Below, in pieces: positions 3,941 through 15,126 of a stretch of 64,000 nucleotides of DNA. A model generated the notes under the pieces. It ran no database searches. It was not told the DNA's origin and was given only the letters and a program-made list of their open reading frames with translations. Within the stretch, counting starts at the first letter, position 1. Each line of letters starts with the position of its first letter. The stretch comes from Microbacterium sp. Se63.02b (GTDB lineage: Bacteria > Actinomycetota > Actinomycetes > Actinomycetales > Microbacteriaceae), in NCBI RefSeq assembly GCF_014171575.1, contig NZ_CP050453.1, forward strand, positions 3,720,001-3,784,000, in the 5' to 3' direction. Both the position numbers and the translations under genes were made by a program.

Positions 3941-4398
3941 CCGGATCGCGACCGGCGGGGCCCCTGATCGGCTCGGTGCTCGGGGGCGGGGCCAGAGTGG
4001 CGGTCGGAGTCCTGTGGCTGAACGAAGGCTTCGTGAAGTATCGGGCGGGCTTCGGGGCGGCCGACATCGCCCTCGTGACCGGGAGCACGGAGGAGAACCC
4101 TCGGGTGCCGTGGTTCTTCGCGCCCGTCGGGTCGTTCATGCAGACGGCTCCGGGACTGTTCGGGGTGGTGATGCCCGCGCTCGAGGTCGCCCTGGGGCTC
4201 CTGCTGGTCGCGGGGCTGCTGACCAGGATCGCGGCGTTCGTGTCGATCGGGACGTTGATGCTCTATTGGAGCGCGGATCAGCTGATTGCCGCGTACCCGG
4301 CGATGGTCGTGCTCTGCGCTGTCGTGCTGCTCCTCCCGGCGGCGGGACGCTTCGGAGTGGACGGCTGGCTGCGAAGGCGGAGGCGGGTCAGCGCGTGA
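3937..4398 (+). CDS. DoxX family integral membrane protein
   Basis: A 153-residue protein with about four hydrophobic segments: residues 12-30, 68-90 (FGVVMPALEVALGLLLVAGLL), 95-110 and 118-135. The layout and LEVALGLLLVAGLLTR are typical of DoxX/SURF4-related proteins, where DoxX is the membrane subunit of thiosulfate:quinone oxidoreductase and its relatives join oxidative-stress complexes. It starts inside the stop of the DM13 lipoprotein, suggesting the two work as a membrane redox pair. The C-terminus overlaps the convergent GntR gene by 11 bp. The family assignment is good; the function is inferred. Confidence 0.8.
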   Translation: MTGSRPAGPLIGSVLGGGARVAVGVLWLNEGFVKYRAGFGAADIALVTGSTEENPRVPWFFAPVGSFMQTAPGLFGVVMPALEVALGLLLVAGLLTRIAAFVSIGTLMLYWSADQLIAAYPAMVVLCAVVLLLPAAGRFGVDGWLRRRRRVSA

Positions 4399-5110
4399 TG
4401 CGCATCCGGAGCACGTCCGTGCGCTGCAGCGTCACTCCGTAGGCGAGAACCCCGCCCTGGACGTCGGTGGTCACCTGCTCTGTGCGCAGCACCGGCGTGC
4501 CGGCGTCGACATCGAGCGCGGTGGCCTCCGGCTCCTCGAGCCGCACCGCCTCGATGTCGGTCGTCGTGTGCGAGACGACGTCGTCGATGTGTCCGTTGAG
4601 CATGTCGAACAGGCCGGAGTCGACCGTCGTCATGGGCGCGGGGTCGATCGCGACGCCGTGGATCGTCGCAGGGATGTGCTCGATCATCTGCGCAGACGGG
4701 GTGTCGTCGACCGCGAACAGTCGGTAGACCCGCCACACGCCCGACTCCGGCTCGACGCCCAGCACCTCGGCGATCTCGGGCGGAGCGGGCACGAGCGTGT
4801 ACCCGGCCTCGCGCAGCGCGACCGTGCGTCCGACGGCGTGCACGCGGTCACGGTAGGAGGCGATGGCCGACATGCTCAGCGAGGACGAAGGTCGAGGCGC
4901 GCTGACGAACGTGCCGACGCCCCAGTTGCGCGTCACGAAGCCCTCGGCCTCGAGCACCCCCAGCGCCTCACGCACGGAACCGCGGCTCACGTCGAGGCTC
5001 TCGGCGATCCGTTTCTCGTTGGGGAGCCTGTCGCCCACGACGTACTCGACATCGATCAGCTGTCGCAGCGCCGCGACGGTGTTCCTCACTACGCTGTCAC
5101 GCTTGGCCAT
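4388..5110 (-). CDS. GntR family regulator, HutC/UTRA subfamily
   Basis: This 240-residue protein has an N-terminal winged helix-turn-helix (VGDRLPNEKRIAESLDVSRGSVREALGVLEAEGFV, residues about 26-60, ending in GVGTFV). A UTRA-type ligand domain follows, with VWRVYRLFAVDDTP, MIEHIP and a C-terminal YGVTLQRTDVLRMRI strand. The ATG chosen (MAKRDSVVRN) gives the usual family length; upstream in-frame starts lie in the neighbouring gene. It is the last gene of the ten-gene peptide-import operon and is the natural local repressor. Its ligand is probably a peptide or hydrolysis product handled by the operon (inferred). Confidence 0.88.
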   Translation of the reverse strand: MAKRDSVVRNTVAALRQLIDVEYVVGDRLPNEKRIAESLDVSRGSVREALGVLEAEGFVTRNWGVGTFVSAPRPSSSLSMSAIASYRDRVHAVGRTVALREAGYTLVPAPPEIAEVLGVEPESGVWRVYRLFAVDDTPSAQMIEHIPATIHGVAIDPAPMTTVDSGLFDMLNGHIDDVVSHTTTDIEAVRLEEPEATALDVDAGTPVLRTEQVTTDVQGGVLAYGVTLQRTDVLRMRITR

Positions 5111-5165: not shown

Positions 5166-6395
5166 CTACCAGACCTCGCCGAGAACACGCATCGCGTTGC
5201 CGCCGATGACCTTCGCAATGTCCTCGTCGCTGTAGCCGTGTTCGACGAGCCAGGCCGTGATGTTCCAGAAGTTCTCACCGGGGTTCTCGAGACCCTCGAC
5301 GTACTCGACGCGCGGGTGCTTCTCATGCTCCGGCGACTTCTGCGCGTAGTTGCCCGCATAGGCCTTGTGCACGGCGACGTGGTCTCCGAACATCGTGTCG
5401 GGGCCGAACGAGACGTGATCGATGCCGACGAGGTCGACGCAGTAGCGGAAGTGGTCCATGACCGAGTCGATCGAGTGCGTGAGGTGCTCGGACGAGATCG
5501 TGGTGTGCGGAGCCGCCTCCAACCCGATGAGCCCGCCGCGCTCGGCGCACGCGATGATGGTCTCGTCGCTCTTCATGCGGTCGATCGGCCAGACGGCGCG
5601 CGCACCGGCATGGGTGATCATGACGGGTACGGCCGAGTGGTCGATCGTCTCCAGGCAGGTCCGGTCCCCCGAGTGCGAGATGTCGATCAGCATGCCGAGC
5701 TTGTTCATGCGATCGACGGCCCGACGACCGAAGGTGGTGAGGCCGCCGTCCGCCGGCTCCGAGAGGCCGGAGCCGAGCATGTTCGACTGCGAATAGGCGA
5801 TGCCGAGCTGACGAACGCCGAACCCGTACAGCATGTCGATGCGGTCGAGTTCGTTCTCGATCATGGTGGAGCACTCGAAGCCCGCGATCAGTGCCACCCG
5901 CCCGTCGCGCTTGGCGGCGTGGATGTCGTCCACGCTCGTGGCCAGCCGGACGTAGTCCTGTTTGGCGAGGTCTGCGAGGCGGAACCCGAGCGCATAGATC
6001 ATGTCGTCCCACTTCCAGCCGCTCTGACTGGTCACGCAGGATGCCCCCGCCATGAAGTTGTCGATCACGGCGGTCAGCCCCGAACGTGACAATCCCTCGT
6101 AGCCCGTGCGCTGACGGCCGGTGCGGTTGTACCGCCGTACCTGGTCGCCGTCTTCGGGCAGCACGATCGCGTGCTCGTGCAGAGAGAGCACGATGTTCTC
6201 GTCCATCAGCCGACGCATGCGGGCCCGCTGCTCCTCATCGAGGTCGAAGGCACGCGCGGGGACGCGATCGACCTCCGCTGCGAGGTCGAAGTGCTGGTAG
6301 TCGCGGCCGGCCTCCAGGTAGCCGTACGCCGTGTATCCGGAGTACTGCGGGGCATTGCCTGCGGGGAGGACGGGCGAAGAGGACGAAGAGGACAT
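5166..6395 (-). CDS. M19 family membrane-dipeptidase homologue, copy 1
   Basis: This 409-residue amidohydrolase-fold protein belongs to peptidase family M19 (renal/membrane dipeptidase; L-L and L-D dipeptides). Visible landmarks are the bridging-Glu region (GFECSTMIENELDRIDMLYG), NMLGSG, the zinc His regions LIDISHSGDRTCLE and VMITHAGARAVWP, and GIDHVSFGPD. The first metal motif, HxD in characterised members, is here SLHEHAIVL (H73, H75), so the Asp ligand is His. There is no signal peptide, so it is probably cytosolic and acts on imported peptides. It is about 50-60% similar by eye to the second copy at the promoter-proximal end of the operon. The serine-rich start is weakly defined. Exact substrate unknown. 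Confidence 0.87.
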   Translation of the reverse strand: MSSSSSSPVLPAGNAPQYSGYTAYGYLEAGRDYQHFDLAAEVDRVPARAFDLDEEQRARMRRLMDENIVLSLHEHAIVLPEDGDQVRRYNRTGRQRTGYEGLSRSGLTAVIDNFMAGASCVTSQSGWKWDDMIYALGFRLADLAKQDYVRLATSVDDIHAAKRDGRVALIAGFECSTMIENELDRIDMLYGFGVRQLGIAYSQSNMLGSGLSEPADGGLTTFGRRAVDRMNKLGMLIDISHSGDRTCLETIDHSAVPVMITHAGARAVWPIDRMKSDETIIACAERGGLIGLEAAPHTTISSEHLTHSIDSVMDHFRYCVDLVGIDHVSFGPDTMFGDHVAVHKAYAGNYAQKSPEHEKHPRVEYVEGLENPGENFWNITAWLVEHGYSDEDIAKVIGGNAMRVLGEVW

Positions 6396-6406
6396 GACGG
6401 TGCTTC

Positions 6407-7417
6407 CTAGCGTGCGAGGGTGTTCTCGGGGATGAGGGGGAAGTGGCAGGCGACGTCTCGGTCGCCGGATGGTGCTGTGGCCCGCAACGGCGGCGCCTCG
6501 CTCGCGCAGACGTCCTGCGCCCGCACGCAGCGCGTGCGGAAGCGGCATCCGCTCGGGGGATCGACGGGGCTCGGCGGATCGCCGGCGAGCAGCGAGCGGC
6601 GACCGCCCCGTCGCGTCGGGTCGGGCACGGGGACGGCCGCGAGCAGCGCGTCGGTGTACGGATGGGCGGGGGTGTCGTAGACCTCGGCTCGGTCTCCGAT
6701 CTCCGCGACGCGCCCCAGGTACATCACGCCGATGCGATCCGAGATGTGACGGACGACGGACAGATCGTGTGCGATGAAGACGTAGGCGAGGCCCAGTTCG
6801 CGTTGCAGCCGCTGGAGGAGGTTGACGACCTGCGCCTGCACCGAGACGTCGAGTGCCGAGACCGGTTCGTCGCAGATGATGACCTCCGGTGAGAGCGCGA
6901 GCGCACGCGCGATCCCGATGCGCTGGCGCTGCCCGCCGGAGAACTGGAACGGGTAGCGATCGAGGTGGTCCGGGTTGAGACCCACCAGCTCCGCCAGCTC
7001 CGCGATCCTCGGCTCACGTCCGCCCCGCGGCGTCACCTCGGGATGGATCTGGAATGGCTGGAGCAGCGTCTCGCGCACGGTGCGGCGCGGGTTGAGCGAG
7101 GAGTAGGGATCCTGCAGCACGATCTGCACGCGTCGGCGCATGTCGTCGCGCTGCGCGCCCCGCAGGCGGTGCAGGTCGGCCCCGCGGAAGCGCACCGCAC
7201 CGGAGGTGGGCGTCTCCAGGCCGACGATCGTGCGCGCCAGGGTCGACTTGCCGCATCCGGACTCGCCGACGATGCCGAGCGTCTCACCCTTGCGCAGCTC
7301 GAAGCTCACGCCGTCGAGCGCGCGCACCACGCGTCCTCCGCCTCCGAATCGGCCGCCTCGCACCGGGAAGTGCTTGGTGAGGTCTTCGACCGTCAGCACC
7401 ACGTCATGCTCGTCCAC
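6407..7417 (-). CDS. Peptide ABC transporter ATPase (DppF/OppF-like)
   Basis: A 336-residue ATPase. I chose the GTG start (VDEHDVVLTVEDL) because AGGAGG lies 6 bp upstream; an ATG further upstream has no such site. Motifs: Walker A GESGCGKST, Q-loop LQDPYSSLNP, signature FSGGQRQRIGIARAL, Walker B VIICDEP, H-loop IAHDLSVV. The C-terminal oligopeptide/dipeptide extension (GCRFRTRC...C) supplies the cysteines that bind an Fe-S cluster in Dpp/Opp ATPases. It overlaps the DppD-like gene by 14 bp and pairs with it to energise the importer made by the two permeases and the lipoprotein of the same operon. Confidence 0.93.
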   Translation of the reverse strand: MDEHDVVLTVEDLTKHFPVRGGRFGGGGRVVRALDGVSFELRKGETLGIVGESGCGKSTLARTIVGLETPTSGAVRFRGADLHRLRGAQRDDMRRRVQIVLQDPYSSLNPRRTVRETLLQPFQIHPEVTPRGGREPRIAELAELVGLNPDHLDRYPFQFSGGQRQRIGIARALALSPEVIICDEPVSALDVSVQAQVVNLLQRLQRELGLAYVFIAHDLSVVRHISDRIGVMYLGRVAEIGDRAEVYDTPAHPYTDALLAAVPVPDPTRRGGRRSLLAGDPPSPVDPPSGCRFRTRCVRAQDVCASEAPPLRATAPSGDRDVACHFPLIPENTLAR

Positions 7418-8414
7418 TGAGCACCTCCTCACGTCGATGGCACGCCGAGACGCGCCCGGTATCGGCGCCGACGGGCCGTGGCTCCGGCCGCTCGGTCGCG
7501 CAGATGTCGATCGCCGCGTCGCAGCGGCCGCGGAACGCGCACCCCTGACCGAGGTCGAGCAGGTTCGGCGGAGCGCCGGGAATCGCCCACAGCACGTCGT
7601 CGTCGCGGTCGGGGCGCGGCATCGAGCGCAGCAGACCCCGCGTATAGGGATGCGCAGTCCGCTCGAACAGCTCGAAGATGGTGCCGCGCTCGACGATGCG
7701 GCCGGCGTACATCACCGCGACCTGGTCGGCCACCTCGGCGACGACGCCGAGATCGTGCGTGATGAGGATGAGGGCCATGCCCGTCTCGCTCTGCAGCTGC
7801 ACGAGGAGGTCCATGATCTGCGCCTGGACGGTCACGTCCAGTGCGGTGGTCGGCTCATCGGCGATGAGCACCTTCGGTTCGAGGGCGATCGCGAGCGCGA
7901 TCATGATCCGCTGCCGCATCCCGCCGGAGAACTGGTGGGGATAGTCCTTCGCGCGCTCCGCCGGCGAGGGGATGCGCACACGGCCCATGAGCTCGACCGC
8001 CCGCTCCCACGCCGCCCGACGACTCATCCCCCTCCGCACACGCAGCAGCTCGGCGATCTGGCCGCCGACGGTGTACACCGGGTTCAAGGCCGACAGCGAG
8101 TCCTGGAACACCATCGCGATGCCCTCGGCGCTCACGGTACGACGCGCGGCAGGATCCATCGTGAGCAGGTCCTGCCCCTCGAACAGGATCTCGCCCGCCG
8201 ACACCCGCCCCGGTGGGGTCTCGATCAGGTTCATGACGGTCTGCGCCGTGACGGACTTGCCCGACCCCGACTCGCCGAGGATGGCGAGCGTGGTGCCGGC
8301 CGACACCTCGAAGGTCACGTCCTGCGCTGCCCGCACGACACCATCGCGTGTCGTGAACTCGACGCTCAGACCGCGCACGCTCAGCACCGGATCGCTCAGC
8401 ACAGGAGCGCTCAT
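7404..8414 (-). CDS. Peptide ABC transporter ATPase (DppD/OppD-like)
   Basis: A 336-residue ATPase, same length as its DppF-like partner. Walker A GESGSGKSV, Q-loop FQDSLSALNPVYTVG, signature FSGGMRQRIMIALAIA, Walker B VLIADEPTTALD, H-loop ITHDLGVV. The C-terminal DppD/OppD extension has GQGCAFRGRCDAAIDIC with its Cys cluster. The GGMRQR signature and TTALD mark the OppD-type subunit, against GGQRQR in the other. The ATG overlaps the alpha/beta hydrolase stop. It couples ATP hydrolysis to peptide import at the inner face of the membrane. Confidence 0.93.
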   Translation of the reverse strand: MSAPVLSDPVLSVRGLSVEFTTRDGVVRAAQDVTFEVSAGTTLAILGESGSGKSVTAQTVMNLIETPPGRVSAGEILFEGQDLLTMDPAARRTVSAEGIAMVFQDSLSALNPVYTVGGQIAELLRVRRGMSRRAAWERAVELMGRVRIPSPAERAKDYPHQFSGGMRQRIMIALAIALEPKVLIADEPTTALDVTVQAQIMDLLVQLQSETGMALILITHDLGVVAEVADQVAVMYAGRIVERGTIFELFERTAHPYTRGLLRSMPRPDRDDDVLWAIPGAPPNLLDLGQGCAFRGRCDAAIDICATERPEPRPVGADTGRVSACHRREEVLSGRA

Positions 8415-9262
8415 CCGCGCACTCCCGCTCTGTGCAGGAAGTCGCGCACGACCGCCTGGAACTTCTCGGGCTCCTCCAACTGCGGCGAGTGCCCCGACTC
8501 CTCGAACACCACGAGCTCGGCGCCGGGGATGCGATCGACGATCTCCTGCGAGGCGGGGACGGGCGTGCGCCAGTCGTGCCGTCCCACCACGACGAGGGTC
8601 GGACACGCGATCTCCCCCAGCCGCGGAAGGAGATCGTACTTCGGCATGTTCACCCCGAACGCCGCGTTGTGGGTCGCGTGGTGGTAGGTCGTCGCCCTCG
8701 CCTTGCGCTCGGTGGCCTCCGGGTCGTACGCGTGGTCGTAGAGGGGCAGGATGCCACGCCAGTACCGCTCGAATTCGGCGTCGTCGGCGAAGTGCCCCGT
8801 CCCGATCCGCGCGATGGTCCAGTCGTCGATCACGACCCTGTCGGTCTGGCGCGCCCGTTCGACGGCCAGATGGTCGTAAGCGGTGTTGGCCGCGGTGTCG
8901 CGCAGGATGAGCGCGCTCACCCGCTCCGGGTGGGCGAGCGTGTACTCCATCGCAAGGAAGCCGCCGTAGGAGCCCCCGGCCATCACGATCGTCTCGAGAC
9001 CGAGGCTTTCGCGGATCGCATCGATGTCGGCGACCCATTGTTCGTGGGTGTACGGCGGTTCGTCCGCGGATTCGCCCGATCCGCGGGCATCGAACGTGAC
9101 GATCCGGTAGTCGTCGCTGAAGGGTCCGAACGAGCGCACCGGCTCCGCACGGGAGCCCAGGCCCGGCGCTCCATGATGCACGATGATCGCCGGGGCATCG
9201 TCGTCCCCGAGGATCTGCAGCTTGATCCTGGCGCCGTTGACGGTGTCGAAGTACTCGCTCAT
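8411..9262 (-). CDS. Alpha/beta hydrolase, proline-iminopeptidase-like (S33)
   Basis: A 283-residue alpha/beta hydrolase. Oxyanion motif HHGAPGLGS, nucleophile elbow VMAGGSYGGFLAMEY (GGSYGG), acid in VVGRHDWRTPVPAS, catalytic His in FEESGHSPQLEEP. The organisation and FDARGSGESADEPPYT resemble the proline iminopeptidase subgroup of family S33, which removes N-terminal residues from small peptides. It lies between the M24 gene and the ATPases, overlapping both neighbours by 4 bp, so it is made with the importer and likely acts on its cargo in the cytosol. An ester or amide hydrolase role is possible. Confidence 0.83.
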   Translation of the reverse strand: MSEYFDTVNGARIKLQILGDDDAPAIIVHHGAPGLGSRAEPVRSFGPFSDDYRIVTFDARGSGESADEPPYTHEQWVADIDAIRESLGLETIVMAGGSYGGFLAMEYTLAHPERVSALILRDTAANTAYDHLAVERARQTDRVVIDDWTIARIGTGHFADDAEFERYWRGILPLYDHAYDPEATERKARATTYHHATHNAAFGVNMPKYDLLPRLGEIACPTLVVVGRHDWRTPVPASQEIVDRIPGAELVVFEESGHSPQLEEPEKFQAVVRDFLHRAGVRG

Positions 9263-10430
9263 GCGATCGTGTTCTCCTCGAGAGTGCGCGGATATCTGGT
9301 GAGGCGCTCCGGACCGTCTGCGGTCACGAGCACCGAATCGGAGATGCGGTAGCCGGCGTGGCCGGGGATGTAGATCCCCGGCTCGCTGGAGAGGATCATC
9401 CCCGGGGCGAGCACGGTCGGGTCCCCGTCCTCGACCCACGGGGCCTCGTGCTGGGCGATGCCGATCCCGTGGCCCTGTCGGTGGCGGATGTACCCGCCAA
9501 GACCCGCATCACGGATGACGTCGAGGCACTCGGTGTTGACGGACGCGCAGGTGCGACCGACCGTCATCGCCTGCGTGCCGATCTCCTGTGCCCGCAGCGC
9601 GACGTCGAAGTATGCCCGCTGCGCGGCCGAGGGCTCCCCGATCACGAACGTGCGCTCGCTCTCGACGAACCGACTCCCGACGGCGGCGCCGAGCGACAGG
9701 ATCAGCGTGTCGCCGATCTCGAGTCGGCGTCGGCTGGGCAGCCCGTGCGGACGTGCCGCATTCGGCCCCGCGTACACGAGTCCCCCGCGAGCTTCGTGGT
9801 GTAGATCACGTGCGAATAGCGCTCGTACATGCGGTCGGTGCCGAACCCGATCACCTCGCGGGCGAGGTCGCCCTCGGTGGGCAGCGGTCCCCCGGATCGC
9901 AGGGCCCCCTCGATGAGCGCCCGTCCGGCTCCGAGCATCTCGTCGCACACCTCGGCCGCCTGTCGATGGAGCTCGATCTCCTCGGGTTCCTTCCGCAGCC
10001 GCAGGTCGCTCAGGATGCGGGTGCGGATGAAGCTGCTCGCGGGGAGGGCATCCACCAGTGCCGCCCGTGCCCCGATCGTCAGGGCGCCGCTCACGCCGAT
10101 CCGTGCCAGCGGAGTCCCGCTCTTCGCCAGCTCGTCGGCCAGGTGCTGCTCCGGCGTTCGCACACCCGGGTACTCGAAGTAGGTGCGGATGTCGGCATGC
10201 ACGCCCTGTGCTGCCGCGTACTCCGCGTCCAGCTCCGGCAGCAGCGCGAACCGGGAGCCGTCGCGACCGAACCAGAGATAGACCGGGCGTTCCGTCACGG
10301 CGTAGAAGAAGCCGATCAGGTAGGCGACGTCGCCGGGCACGGTCACGATCAACCCGTCGAGCTGATCCTCGGAGAGACGCGCGCGCACGCGATCCTGGAT
10401 GCGCTGGTAGAAGTCGTCTGCGAGCTTCAT
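9259..10430 (-). CDS. M24 (aminopeptidase P/creatinase-like) protein with altered metal site (one apparent frameshift)
   Basis: The corrected product has 390 residues: a creatinase N-terminal domain (1 to about 140) and a pita-bread M24 domain. The frame breaks at 9781-9785; adding one G to the run joins IYTTKLA to GGLVYAGPNAARPHG. In the M24 domain the usual metal ligands D, D, H, E, E align as S (ILSLG, about 246), E (FVESERTF, about 257), H (GHGIGIAQHEAP), E (LSSEPGIYIP) and S (GYRISDSVLVT). Two of five ligands are replaced by Ser and one by Glu, so a normal two-metal aminopeptidase site is unlikely. A metal-free, creatinase-type hydrolase is the obvious alternative. Start and stop overlap its operon neighbours. 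Confidence 0.82.
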
Positions 10431-11305
10431 CACACACCTCTCAGGCGCGGGTCGCGCGAGTCGTTGTAGCGGATGCCGGCGATGGTCGCGGCGAGCACCA
10501 GGACGAGGATCGCGAGCGAGGGGAACAGGGTCTGCCACCACGCCGTCGCGATCACCCCGGACCGCTGCGCATTGAGCAGGATGCGCCCCCACGACCAGGT
10601 GCTGGGGTCGCCCATGCCGAGGAAGCTCAGTCCGGCCTCGGAGATCACGGCTCTGGCCGCCTGCAGCAGAACACTGACCACGACGAGGGGCATGACTGCC
10701 GGGAGGATCTCGGTGGAGAGGATGCGGATCGGACCAGCCCCGAGCACCCGCGCCCCGTCGATGTAGGGCATCGACGACACGACCAGCGCGTTGGAGCGGA
10801 TGAGCCGGGCGACTTCCGCCCACGAGAGCACACCGATCACGACCGTGAGGGTCAGGACGCTCGGCCCGGCCAGCGCGGTCACCAGGATCATGAGGGGCAG
10901 CAGCGGGAGCGAGAGCATCACGTCGGTCAGCGTGGTCACGATCGGGTCGAGTCGTCGGACGTAGGCCCCGATCAATCCCAGCGCCGTGCCGATGACGATC
11001 GCGATCACGGATGCCGCGGCCCCGACGATCAGGCTCACCCTGGTGCCCCAGACCACTTGGGCGAACACGTCCTGCCCGAGGTCGTCCGTACCGAACCAGT
11101 GCTGCGCGGACGGGGGCTGGAGGATGTCGACGCCGAGCCCGCTCGGCTTGTCGACGATCATCGGTCCGAAGATCGCGGTCAGCGCGAACACGACGAGCAC
11201 GCCGACCGAGAGCCATCCGGATGGCGACGAGAAGTAGCCTCCGCCGCGACGTCGGCGGCGGGTCAGGGCGTCGAGGTTCGTCGGCGCGGGAAGTGTGGTG
11301 CTCAT
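10430..11305 (-). CDS. Peptide ABC transporter permease (DppC/OppC-like)
   Basis: A 291-residue permease. One N-terminal helix (GWLSVGVLVVFALTAIFGPM) is followed by the conserved periplasmic motif HWFGTDDLGQDVFAQVVWGTR, four to five more helices and the EAA-type coupling loop (ARVLGAGPIRILSTEILPAVMP, then SEAGLSFLGMG). These identify the DppC/OppC subfamily. The stop shares the ATGA of the M24 start, and the gene overlaps the DppB-like permease by 4 bp. It forms the translocation pore with that protein. Confidence 0.93.
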   Translation of the reverse strand: MSTTLPAPTNLDALTRRRRRGGGYFSSPSGWLSVGVLVVFALTAIFGPMIVDKPSGLGVDILQPPSAQHWFGTDDLGQDVFAQVVWGTRVSLIVGAAASVIAIVIGTALGLIGAYVRRLDPIVTTLTDVMLSLPLLPLMILVTALAGPSVLTLTVVIGVLSWAEVARLIRSNALVVSSMPYIDGARVLGAGPIRILSTEILPAVMPLVVVSVLLQAARAVISEAGLSFLGMGDPSTWSWGRILLNAQRSGVIATAWWQTLFPSLAILVLVLAATIAGIRYNDSRDPRLRGV

Positions 11306-12255
11306 GTGCGGATCCTGGGGTTGAGGAACATGGCGATGAGGTCGGTGGCGAGGTTCGCCAGGACGACGGTGAGGGCGAGGATGACGAAGGCGCCCTGGAG
11401 CATCGGGTAGTCGAGCTGCTGAACCGACTCGTAGATGAGGCGTCCGACGCCCGGGTAGGCGAAGATCGTCTCGGTGAGCACGGCGCCGCCGACGAGCGTT
11501 CCGAGCTGGAGGCCCATCAGCGTCAGCGCGGGGATGAACGCGTTGCGCAGCGCGTGCAGCCAGGTGGTGCGGCGTGGCGTGTATCCGCGTGATCGCGCGC
11601 TCTTGATGTAGTCCTCGCCGAGCACCTCGAGCATGTTGGTGCGGAGGGTGAGCGCGTACGGCCCGACCTGCACCAGGACGAGCGAGAACAACGGCAGCGC
11701 CAGATGCTGGAACAGGCTCAGGTAGGCGGCGACCCCTCTGGTGTCGGGGTCGATCGCGCCACCGATCGGGAACATGCCCAGGTTCGCGGCGAAGACGACG
11801 AGCAGGAAGATGGCGACGCTCGGCACGAACAGCGCATTGCTGGTGATGCCGAGGAACTGCACGAGCTTGTCGACCGCCTTTCCGCGCCCCACGGCTGCGT
11901 ACACGCCGAGCGGGATCCCGATCAGGATCGTCAGCACGAACGCCGACCCCGCGAGCAGGAGCGTCCACGGCAGCCGCTCCAGGAGCACGTCGGTCACGGG
12001 GACGAGCTGCCGGAACGAGACACCGAGATTCCCGGTGAGCAGCTCGCCGAGATACAGCAGGTACTGCACGAGCAGCGGCTTGTCCAAGCCGTACTGCTCG
12101 CGCAGCGCCTGCTGCATCTCCGGGGTCATGTCCCCCTCCACGACGAGGAGGGTGGGATCGGCCGGCAGCAGCCGCAGCAGGAAGAACGTGATGGTCACTG
12201 CGATCCAGATGGTGAGCACCGCCCGCAGGGCCTTCTTCGAGGCGTAGTGCAGCAT
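11302..12255 (-). CDS. Peptide ABC transporter permease (DppB/OppB-like)
   Basis: A 317-residue permease. N-terminal helix LTIWIAVTITFFLLRLLPADP is typical of DppB/OppB; then YGLDKPLLVQYLLYLGELLTGNLGVSF, further helices, the EAA loop (SARSRGYTPRRTTWLHALRNAFIP) and C-terminal YPMLQGAFVILALTVVLANLATD. AGGAGG precedes the ATG by about 10 bp. It lies directly after the binding-protein gene and is coupled to the DppC-like gene. Confidence 0.93.
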   Translation of the reverse strand: MLHYASKKALRAVLTIWIAVTITFFLLRLLPADPTLLVVEGDMTPEMQQALREQYGLDKPLLVQYLLYLGELLTGNLGVSFRQLVPVTDVLLERLPWTLLLAGSAFVLTILIGIPLGVYAAVGRGKAVDKLVQFLGITSNALFVPSVAIFLLVVFAANLGMFPIGGAIDPDTRGVAAYLSLFQHLALPLFSLVLVQVGPYALTLRTNMLEVLGEDYIKSARSRGYTPRRTTWLHALRNAFIPALTLMGLQLGTLVGGAVLTETIFAYPGVGRLIYESVQQLDYPMLQGAFVILALTVVLANLATDLIAMFLNPRIRT

Positions 12256-12297: not shown

Positions 12298-13920
12298 TCA
12301 GACCGGTCGGACCTGCGCCAGCGAGTAGCCGGTCACCATGCCGAGCAGATCGCTCGGCGACGGGTCGAAGCCCTCGAAGCGGTCGGAGCGGTAGGCGAAC
12401 CGGAACGTCTCGACGTACAGCGGGGTCAGCAGCGCCTGATCGTGGACGTACTCGTCGATCGCGCGGATCTTCTCCCCGAACGCGTCCTTGTCGACCGTCA
12501 CCGCGGCGTCGTCGATCAGAGCGTCGAGCTCGGCGTCCTGCACCAGGTTGTAGTTGATGCCGCCGGGGTTCGACGAGAGATAGGTGCTGCGCAGCTGGTC
12601 CATCGGGTTGTCGAAGACGCCCCACTGCGAGAGGTCGATGTCGTACTGGCCGTCCTTGGTGCGCGAGAGGAAGGTGTTGCGTTCGATGCACGCGACGGTC
12701 AGCTCGATACCGGCATCCACGGCGTCCTCGCGGACGACCTCGGCCACTCGGGTGAGGTTGGCGTTGGACTGGTCGCAGAGCACCTCGAACGACAGCCCGT
12801 CGAGCATCCCGTCGCCGTCGGCGTCGGTGTAGCCCGCGTCTTCGAGCAGCGCCTTCGCGCCGGCGGGGTCGAACGGATACGCCTCGAGGTCGGGGTTGTC
12901 GAACTCCCCGAAGATCGGCGAGATCGGACCGACCATCTCCTGGCCGTCTCCCTGGAGGATCGTCGAGATGATCGACTCGGTGTCCACCACCATCGACAGC
13001 GCCTGGCGCACCGGTTGCTCGGCGAGGGTCGCGTTCTGCATGTTGTAGGTGAGGTGGGCGAAGCCGAGGGATCCGACCTCCTGCATGGTGATGTCCGCTT
13101 CGGGCTCGAGCGAGGCCGCAGCAGATGCGGGGACCGGAGTGCCCATGAGGTCGATGTCGCCGTTGCGCAGCGCCAGGATCATCGTGTTCACGTCGGGGTA
13201 GACGACGTATTCGACCGTGCCGACCGCGGCGCCGCCCTCAGGCGCGTAGGGGTAGTTCTCGTTCGCCTTGAGCACGTACCGCTGGCCGCGCTTCATCGAG
13301 TCGAGGACGTACGCGCCGGCGCCGACCCAGCCGTCGGCCTGATCGTTCGCGAAGGTGCTGAGGTCGCCGGCTTCGCTGAAGATGTGCTCGGGGACGACGC
13401 GCATCCAGAATCCGACGCCTTCGGCGAAGGGCGCGTACGGCTGGGTGAGGTGGAAGATCACCGTCGTGTCGTCGGGGGCCTCGATCGATTCGACCCAGGT
13501 GAGCTTCGCGGCGACGTTGCCGAGCTGGTTCTCCATGATCGCCTCGGCCGTGAACTTCACGTCGGAGGCGGTCACCGGCTCCCCGTCGCTCCACTCGAAG
13601 TCGTCGCGGAGCGTGTAGATCACGGTCGCGCCGTCGTCTTCGAGCGTGTACTCCTCGGCGAGTTCCGGCACCTTCTCCGCGTTGCCGTCGATGCGCAGCA
13701 GCTGCGGGTACATCGCGTTGAGGATCCAGCTGTCGGTCTTGGACAGCGAACCGAGCGGGTTGAAGTTCGCGACGTCGGTCGTGGTGCCGATGCGGAGCGT
13801 CGATGCTCCGGCCTCGGTGTCGGGCTGTTCGCCCTGGTCCTCGTTGAGGCCGCAGCCCGCGAGGAGGAGCGCGGCCGCGGCGATGCCCGCAACGATTCCC
13901 GTGCCTCTGTATCTCTTCAT
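12298..13920 (-). CDS. Peptide-binding lipoprotein of the ABC importer (SBP family 5)
   Basis: A 540-residue extracellular solute-binding protein. Signal peptide and lipobox AAAALLLAGC (Cys about 23) anchor it to the outer face of the membrane. The mature protein has the family-5 layout: NFNPLGSLSKTDSWILNAMYPQLLRID, LRDDFEWSDGEPVTASDV, NGDIDLMGTP and repeated substrate-lobe motifs. TDADGDGMLDGL resembles the DxDxDG Ca-binding loop common in this family. It sits second in the operon, 3 bp after the M19 gene, ahead of the permeases. The ligand is presumably di- or oligopeptides, perhaps modified ones, given the peptidases encoded with it. Confidence 0.92.
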   Translation of the reverse strand: MKRYRGTGIVAGIAAAALLLAGCGLNEDQGEQPDTEAGASTLRIGTTTDVANFNPLGSLSKTDSWILNAMYPQLLRIDGNAEKVPELAEEYTLEDDGATVIYTLRDDFEWSDGEPVTASDVKFTAEAIMENQLGNVAAKLTWVESIEAPDDTTVIFHLTQPYAPFAEGVGFWMRVVPEHIFSEAGDLSTFANDQADGWVGAGAYVLDSMKRGQRYVLKANENYPYAPEGGAAVGTVEYVVYPDVNTMILALRNGDIDLMGTPVPASAAASLEPEADITMQEVGSLGFAHLTYNMQNATLAEQPVRQALSMVVDTESIISTILQGDGQEMVGPISPIFGEFDNPDLEAYPFDPAGAKALLEDAGYTDADGDGMLDGLSFEVLCDQSNANLTRVAEVVREDAVDAGIELTVACIERNTFLSRTKDGQYDIDLSQWGVFDNPMDQLRSTYLSSNPGGINYNLVQDAELDALIDDAAVTVDKDAFGEKIRAIDEYVHDQALLTPLYVETFRFAYRSDRFEGFDPSPSDLLGMVTGYSLAQVRPV

Positions 13921-13923
13921 GTG

Positions 13924-15126
13924 TTACCAGACCTCTTTCAGAACTCGCAGAATGTTCGTGCCGATGACTTTGCGGATGTCCTCGTCGCCGTACCCGTTTT
14001 TGACGAGCCAGCCGACGATGTTCGTGAAGTTCTCCGCGGGGTTCTCCAGGCCCGCGACGTGAGAGACGCGCGGATGCTCCACGTGTCCGTGTGCCTGACT
14101 GATGGTCAGGTGGCCGGAGAAGGAATCGTGGAGCCCGACGTGGTCTCCGAAGTTCGTGTCGGGGCCGAAGGCCACGTGGTCGATGCCGACCAGGTCGACG
14201 CAGTAGCGGAAGTGATCCATCACCGACTCCAGCGAATGCTCGGGGTGCTCGGCGGAGAGCGTCGTGTGCGGGGCGGCTTCGATGCCGATCACTCCGCCCC
14301 GTTCGGCACACGCGATGATGACCTCGTCGGGCTTCATCCGGTTGGTCGGCCAGACGCTGCGCGCACCGGCGTGCGTGATGAACACCGGCACGGACGACTC
14401 GTCGATCACGTCCATGCTGGTGCGGTCGGAGGAATGGGAGATGTCGATGGCGAGACCGAGTCGGTTCATGCGCTCGACGGCTCGACGTCCGAAGCTCGTG
14501 ATCCCGCCGTCCTGGGGCTCTGCGAGTCCGGAGCCGAGCTGGTTCGCCATGGAGTAGGCGATGCCGATCTGGCGGATCCCGAGACCGTAGAGGATGTCGA
14601 GTCGGTCGAGCTCGTTCTCGATCGCGGTAGCGGCTTCGAGCCCCGCGACGAGGGCGATCCGACCTGCGGCCTTCGCGTTCTCCAGGTCGGCGACGGTCCG
14701 GGCGACGACGACGTGATCCTGCTGCGCGACGTCGGCGAAGCGCAGGCCGATGTCGAACACGACGTCGTTCCACTTCCACCCGTTCTCACTCGTGACGCAA
14801 TTGGTGCCGTTCATGAAGTTGTCGAAGAAGGCGGACATGCCCGATCGCGCGAGTCCGGCGAACCCCATGGCGTTGCGCCCCGTGTGGTTGTACTCACGCA
14901 GTTGATGCGGGTCGGCCGTGAGGATCTTGGGGTGCTCATGCAGTGAGATCGCATGCTCGTCGGAGAGAAGGCGGGCGACCCGCTGCACCTGATCGGGGTC
15001 GAGCCCGAGCTCATACGCCGGAACGCGGCCGAACTCCTGCGCCAGGGCGAAGACGCGGTAGTCGACGTGCGGCTCCAGATAGTCGAAGGAGGTGTATCCG
15101 CGATAGTTGCCGCTTGGCTCTTGCAT
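13924..15126 (-). CDS. M19 family membrane-dipeptidase homologue, copy 2
   Basis: First gene of the operon; 400 residues from the ATG that gives MQEPSGNYRGYTSF. Paralogue of copy 1, with matching landmarks: LEAATAIENELDRLDILYG, AIDISHSSDRTSMD, VFITHAGARSVWPTNRMK, GIDHVAFGPDTNFGDHV, and a C-terminus TNILRVLKEVW. As in copy 1 the first metal motif is SLHEHPKIL (H63, H65), not HxD. There is no signal peptide. Keeping two diverged copies at opposite ends of one transporter operon suggests different substrate ranges. The family is certain at fold level; activity is not proven. Confidence 0.87.
   Translation of the reverse strand: MQEPSGNYRGYTSFDYLEPHVDYRVFALAQEFGRVPAYELGLDPDQVQRVARLLSDEHAISLHEHPKILTADPHQLREYNHTGRNAMGFAGLARSGMSAFFDNFMNGTNCVTSENGWKWNDVVFDIGLRFADVAQQDHVVVARTVADLENAKAAGRIALVAGLEAATAIENELDRLDILYGLGIRQIGIAYSMANQLGSGLAEPQDGGITSFGRRAVERMNRLGLAIDISHSSDRTSMDVIDESSVPVFITHAGARSVWPTNRMKPDEVIIACAERGGVIGIEAAPHTTLSAEHPEHSLESVMDHFRYCVDLVGIDHVAFGPDTNFGDHVGLHDSFSGHLTISQAHGHVEHPRVSHVAGLENPAENFTNIVGWLVKNGYGDEDIRKVIGTNILRVLKEVW

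Follow-up and report, generated by a model that had tools for sequence, protein, structure and literature searches.

Characterised members of the M19 family, among them human renal dipeptidase (DPEP1, 1itq) and Sco3058 of Streptomyces coelicolor (3id7), carry a His-x-Asp (HxD) pair on their first strand, H20-x-D22 within the motif DGHND, together with a bridging Glu, two further His, an Arg and an Asp. The Cys-Gly dipeptidase GliJ (5lwz) also has this fold, as does its D38H mutant (5lx4), in which the Asp of the pair was replaced with His by engineering; the solved structure of this mutant indicates that the M19 fold tolerates the exchange. The family can also do without the pair, since the Pseudomonas aeruginosa 'amidohydrolase' 2i5g has a first strand reading IDGLII, which contains neither HxD nor HxH, and its bridging position is Gln rather than Glu, so M19 proteins can lack the site. 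Outside M19, phosphotriesterase and dihydroorotase carry HxH on the first strand, a pattern found in many amidohydrolases acting on cyclic amides. Many of these non-M19 HxH enzymes use a carboxylated Lys as the bridge, and the ligand set of many other amidohydrolases consists of HxH, a carboxylate bridge, His, His and Asp.

Here we describe an M19 protein, copy 1, that reads SLHEH where 1itq and 3id7 read DGHND, with LHEH as residues 72-75 of its translation. It is encoded in a window of 64,000 nucleotides, the whole stretch of Microbacterium sp. Se63.02b DNA that was analysed. The features discussed below are as follows; 'rows' refers to the alignment of relatives described further on.

4388..5110, minus strand: GntR/UTRA regulator (family scan)
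5166..6395, minus strand: M19 HxH protein copy 1, 409 aa (Pfam match)
5379..5381, minus strand: H339; His in 105/105 full-length HxH rows, Gly in HxD rows
5397..5399, minus strand: D333, catalytic Asp position (alignment)
5577..5579, minus strand: R273, substrate-carboxylate Arg position (alignment)
5610..5612, minus strand: H262, metal ligand position (alignment)
5673..5675, minus strand: H241, metal ligand position (alignment)
5874..5876, minus strand: E174, bridging-Glu position; same residue in HxH, HxD and HxC rows
6179-6171, minus strand: codons CAC GAG CAC, H73-E74-H75, at the HxD position of canonical M19 (alignments)
6407..7432, minus strand: OppF-type ABC ATPase (ABC_tran and oligo_HPY, Pfam)
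7404..8414, minus strand: OppD-type ABC ATPase (best NCBIfam model OppD, below cut-off)
8411..9262, minus strand: alpha/beta hydrolase (best NCBIfam model proline-iminopeptidase family, below cut-off)
9259..10430, minus strand: M24 peptidase gene, Xaa-Pro-dipeptidase-like (family from the intact relative in L082)
10430..11305, minus strand: DppC-type permease (position and conservation)
11302..12255, minus strand: DppB-type permease (Pfam)
12298..13920, minus strand: SBP_bac_5 substrate-binding protein (best NCBIfam model NikA, below cut-off)
13924..15126, minus strand: M19 HxH protein copy 2, 400 aa, H63-E64-H65, 61% identity to copy 1

An HEH motif at the HxD position

Copies 1 and 2 both pass the gathering score of PF01244 (Peptidase_M19), at 215.5 bits (E 1.4e-63) and 224.1 bits respectively against a cut-off of 26, and M19 is the sole Pfam family reported for the M19 proteins. 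Scans against NCBIfam yielded no model close to its cut-off for either copy, and none at E 1e-5 for an HxH M19 protein of Deinococcus. The closest named protein among the best 80 of 548 relatives, from Microbacterium resistens NBRC 103078, is 88% identical to copy 1. Inspection of the N-terminus of copy 1 by eye found neither a signal peptide nor a membrane helix. Copy 1 belongs to the M19 sequence family, yet not to the canonical HxD membrane dipeptidases: HEH occupies the place of the first-strand His-x-Asp, whereas the bridging Glu and two His (E174, H241, H262), the Arg (R273) and the Asp (D333) are all at the positions they hold in 1itq and 3id7. It probably works like an HxD membrane dipeptidase nonetheless.

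The Pfam match to copy 1 begins at profile position 29, past the HxD region, and in direct PDB sequence searches with the M19 protein the matches likewise began past this region, leaving it uncovered; the equivalence of HEH and HxD was therefore bridged through other alignments. A MAFFT alignment with HxD, HxC and other M19 proteins matched H73 to the His and H75 to the Asp of the pair, and E174, H241, H262, R273 and D333 to their M19 counterparts. An hhalign comparison of a 31-sequence subfamily alignment with 21 HxD proteins returned the identical pairing (probability 100%, E 5.9e-50). Finally, the HND of the HxD protein L025 aligns with H20-N-D22 of 1itq and 3id7 and with H36-N-D38 of GliJ, through which H73 and H75 fall on H20 and D22 of the two dipeptidases of known structure, and GliJ D38H carries the same replacement at the equivalent position. 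These three lines of support have sequences in common and are thus partly dependent. Together they bear out the original prediction that HEH stands in place of HxD.

We consider it very improbable that the pairing is a misalignment, with a true HxD elsewhere in the protein and HEH away from the metal site. The gap in the direct searches leaves room for such an error, and many subfamily members have an HQD string where copy 1 has residues 145-147, but this string is missing from copy 1 (KQD) and from copy 2 (QQD), MAFFT and hhalign agree in placing HEH at the HxD position rather than at another, and the predicted model has a strand there. In this AlphaFold2 model of copy 1 (pLDDT 88.5, pTM 0.91), the strand spans residues 70-74, so H75 would lie just past its end. 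The model has the M19 fold, and its nearest fold matches do not belong to a non-M19 HxH family: the top 17 of the 50 listed are entries with the M19 fold (Z 34.0-39.9), and the next has Z 16.3. The best is 2i5g (Z 39.9, 27% identity), with GliJ (Z 38.2), its D38H mutant (Z 37.6), Sco3058 (Z 37.1, 26% identity) and DPEP1 (Z 37.0, 22% identity) also among them, whereas non-M19 members of the amidohydrolase superfamily, a different family from copy 1, match at Z of about 15-16.

Extent and conservation of the HxH clade

The alignment used to follow the motif has 152 rows, namely 106 HxH, 32 HxD, 9 HxC and 5 without the pair, whose bridging position is Gln. Some of these are one record present twice (e.g. 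L009/L109, L027/L058, L029/L113, L146/L094), and a fragment (L149) and a protein about 40% identical (L163) are counted among them. The HxH rows are relatives that share roughly 40% identity or more with copy 1; they comprise 105 full-length proteins and one N-terminal fragment, and correspond to 101 distinct sequences in 60 groups at 90% identity. Because H73 and H75 are kept in all 106, a chance origin of HEH is excluded. A reading of the gene as a pseudogene was likewise rejected, HxH being kept in 106/106 aligned relatives.

The conservation extends beyond the His pair. In line with the original prediction that the remaining His and Glu ligands are retained, E174, H241 and H262 are present in 105/105 full-length HxH rows, as are R273 and D333. 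The middle residue of the motif is acidic in 106/106 (Glu 64, Asp 42), and the residue two before the motif His is Ser in 105 rows and Thr in 1, in contrast to the Asp of HxD and HxC relatives, giving a signature of the type [S/T]LH[E/D]H. Ahead of the barrel lies an N-terminal segment, about 50 residues long, that is conserved in the clade, and a further His, H343, is found in 102 HxH rows and absent from two haloarchaeal ones. GliJ D38H is a single engineered change within DGHND, whereas here the replacement is natural and is accompanied by Ser where DGHND has its first Asp and by an acidic residue in the middle position. Thus HEH, which had been described as a feature of one protein and its copy and does occur in both, is in fact the signature of a whole clade; the observation is confirmed and widened accordingly.

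A tree of 84 rows, built with the motif columns left out, placed 40 HxH rows on one side (SH-aLRT 100), 31 HxD rows on one branch (SH-aLRT 98) and 9 HxC rows on another (SH-aLRT 100). This was a quick tree with long-branch warnings and, being unrooted, it gives HxH no polarity. The HxC proteins (L013, L015-L020, L022, L142) are an M19 branch of their own, reading WDQH[A/T]C and with the rest of the ligand set complete. The proteins without the first-strand pair and with Gln for the bridging Glu (L014, L141, L143, L156, L157) are of the same type as PDB 2i5g; the Gln-type relatives in the tree lie together with the HxH clade on one side of the HxD branch, in a tree that was unrooted and did not include 2i5g, which is itself a further M19 variant, different from HxH.

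The HxH rows span actinobacteria, Deinococcus and haloarchaea, and make up an uncharacterised branch of M19 in bacteria and archaea. Full-text searches of the open literature, read at the level of titles and the starts of abstracts, found no natural HxH M19 protein among the matches listed. The distribution of the clade is patchy: it occurs in 28 of 299 genomes of the bacterial family (E 1e-60 or better) and in 5 of 396 genomes drawn across the phylum (E 1e-50 or better), the genome studied here being counted in both. This genome has three HxH copies, two of which bound one gene cluster at its ends; the third lies away from the cluster at G000:C1:2334979-2336175. The same genome also has a canonical-type M19 gene with DGHND (L161, G000:C1:2363375-2364347), matched in three pieces as if frame-broken.

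Gene neighbourhoods

The cluster bounded by copies 1 and 2 reads, in minus-strand order, M19 copy 2, binding protein, DppB, DppC, M24 peptidase, alpha/beta hydrolase, OppD, OppF, M19 copy 1 and GntR regulator, with the start codon of copy 1 eleven bases past the stop codon of the OppF-type gene. The importer may bring in the dipeptide or dipeptide-like amide on which copy 1 would act, although the binding protein scores nearer to the nickel model NikA (168.0 bits, cut-off 393) than to DppA (115.1 bits, cut-off 1005), both below cut-off. PDB sequence searches with the alpha/beta hydrolase listed an esterase first and a proline iminopeptidase second, and its fit to proline iminopeptidases is about equal to that to esterases and enol-lactonases; the M24 relative matches the Xaa-Pro dipeptidase model below its curated cut-off. 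A proline-type substrate is thus suggestive only. The reading frame of the M24 gene is broken between about 9783 and 9822, whereas the frame of the L082 relative is unbroken; the break could reflect a sequencing indel, because another M19 gene of this genome is split as well.

A scan of species genomes returned 548 relatives, the best 80 of which represent 60 loci, all titled actinobacteria. In 48 of these 60, the loci nearest the query rather than a sample of the whole clade, SBP_bac_5, both permeases, the M24 peptidase and the alpha/beta hydrolase each have a copy on the M19 strand, where presence within the flanks was scored and not strict adjacency. An OppD- or OppF-like ORF occurs in 50/60 (in L102 only a 37% one), a GntR-like ORF in 30/60 and a second M19 ORF in 24/60. 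All or part of the set is missing from 12 loci, four of them on contigs under 10 kb (L076, L094, L096, L108). A family of similar ORFs recurs in 24 of the 60 loci (L056-L115; e.g. L111:14716-15885 and L106:6837-7919) and looks like an Lrp/AsnC regulator in a Pfam run on the ORF near M19 in L106.

The surroundings of HxH genes in other lineages vary, and the gene calls around some of these loci are rough. Deinococcus sp. QL22 has, in a row, genes for a binding protein, two permeases, a BPL-N domain protein, M19, an alpha/beta hydrolase and a Xaa-Pro peptidase, and D. peraridilitoris has an M28 peptidase, binding protein, permeases and M19. Halolamina has an M28 peptidase gene and an Asp/Glu racemase family gene, the latter adjoining M19, Halorussus has M28 and M20-type peptidases with M19, and Paenarthrobacter has hydA and M20 genes about 7 kb from its HxH M19. 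A few kb from M19 in L106 lie an Asp/Glu/hydantoin racemase family gene and an amidohydrolase resembling the Xaa-Pro dipeptidase model, below cut-off, and in L159 a creatininase family gene is similarly a few kb away. In L160 (2297-7140), an HxH M19 gene lies near DUF885, an ApbA-type reductase and methylaspartate ammonia-lyase, possibly an amino-acid catabolic set. Taken together, these neighbourhoods read as amino-acid and peptide catabolism with substrates differing between branches; a single substrate for the whole clade is unlikely, because 12 of the 60 loci lack the full set and the neighbours in other lineages differ.

Proposed mechanism and alternative readings

We suggest, with a probability of about 0.58, that copy 1, from a distinct clade with His-(Glu/Asp)-His, is a catalytically competent metallohydrolase of the M19 fold, probably located in the cytosol, and would cleave an imported dipeptide or dipeptide-like amide; its metals, activity and substrate, and its location, judged by eye, are all inferred. 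By analogy with renal dipeptidase, we take H73 and H75, with the bridging E174, to hold one metal, and E174, H241 and H262 to hold the second; on the same assumption, D333 would act as the base that activates the bridging water and R273 would grip the carboxylate of the substrate. The acid at position 74 may compensate for the charge lost with the Asp. The substrate would arrive through the neighbouring Dpp/Opp-type importer, with the M24 Xaa-Pro-type peptidase and the alpha/beta hydrolase acting alongside copy 1. The His for Asp exchange would, by analogy, give the clade the ligand set of many other amidohydrolases, with a Glu position as the bridge rather than the carboxylated Lys of many non-M19 HxH enzymes. 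Conservation of every ligand position across actinobacteria, Deinococcus and haloarchaea makes an active two-metal site the likeliest reading. Given the acidic middle residue in 106/106 rows and the lost preceding Asp, the change to this site may go beyond the exchange of one ligand. The original prediction of a probably active enzyme with a reshaped binuclear site is thus supported in part: it is the likeliest reading of the kept ligand positions.

It is possible, if somewhat unlikely, that copy 1 is an ordinary zinc M19 dipeptidase in which the change from Asp to His is functionally neutral and the motif a mere lineage marker. The other ligands as well as R273 and D333 are kept, the neighbours are peptidase-like and GliJ accepted the same replacement in a solved M19-fold structure. 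On the other hand, HxH with an acidic middle residue occurs in 106/106 rows, the preceding Asp is lost in all of them and the clade-specific H339 is present in 105/105 (H343, found in 102 rows and missing from two haloarchaeal ones, being a weaker case), and the acidic residue, the lost Asp and H339 together suggest coordinated change. The clade may also hydrolyse a non-peptide amide, such as a cyclic imide, lactam, diketopiperazine or N-acyl compound, instead of ordinary dipeptides. This we regard as unlikely: HxH is typical of many amidohydrolases of cyclic amides, and the racemase family genes (L106, Halolamina), creatininase family gene (L159), methylaspartate ammonia-lyase (L160) and hydA (Paenarthrobacter) would suit such chemistry, but each of these is a single context, the commonest one seen is the importer with M24 and the alpha/beta hydrolase (48/60), and R273 is kept in 105/105 full-length rows. 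That copy 1 is a non-catalytic homologue appears decidedly improbable. The standard HxD is absent, and M19 proteins without first-strand ligands and with Gln for the bridging Glu do exist (five rows and 2i5g); unlike that type, however, full-length HxH proteins keep E174, H241, H262, R273 and D333 in 105/105.

Returning to the reading of an active two-metal enzyme, we tentatively raise a wider proposal, itself rather unlikely, that the LH[E/D]H clade adds to the HxD, HxC and Gln types of M19 another naturally occurring design of the metal site, in which H-acid-H and H339 would support a different metal or reaction, for example the hydrolysis of cyclic or proline-type amides, in both archaea and bacteria. 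GliJ D38H provides an engineered precedent for the swap, which in this clade is natural. With a natural HxH branch beside the HxD, HxC and no-ligand types, M19 lends itself well to testing how a single fold rebuilds a two-metal site, and the conserved importer-plus-hydrolase neighbourhood makes the HxH substrate findable.

Seven of 364 public plasmid records with a match were followed, and these gave at least five HxH genes, two from Deinococcus, one from Paenarthrobacter and two haloarchaeal. All five are annotated as 'membrane dipeptidase'; because their products lack the usual metal ligand of the family, a function would be assigned wrongly or the enzyme taken to be inactive. On the haloarchaeal plasmids of Halolamina (L153) and Halorussus (L154), the HxH M19 gene lies near M28 peptidases, and the plasmid location in haloarchaea may point to transfer between domains.
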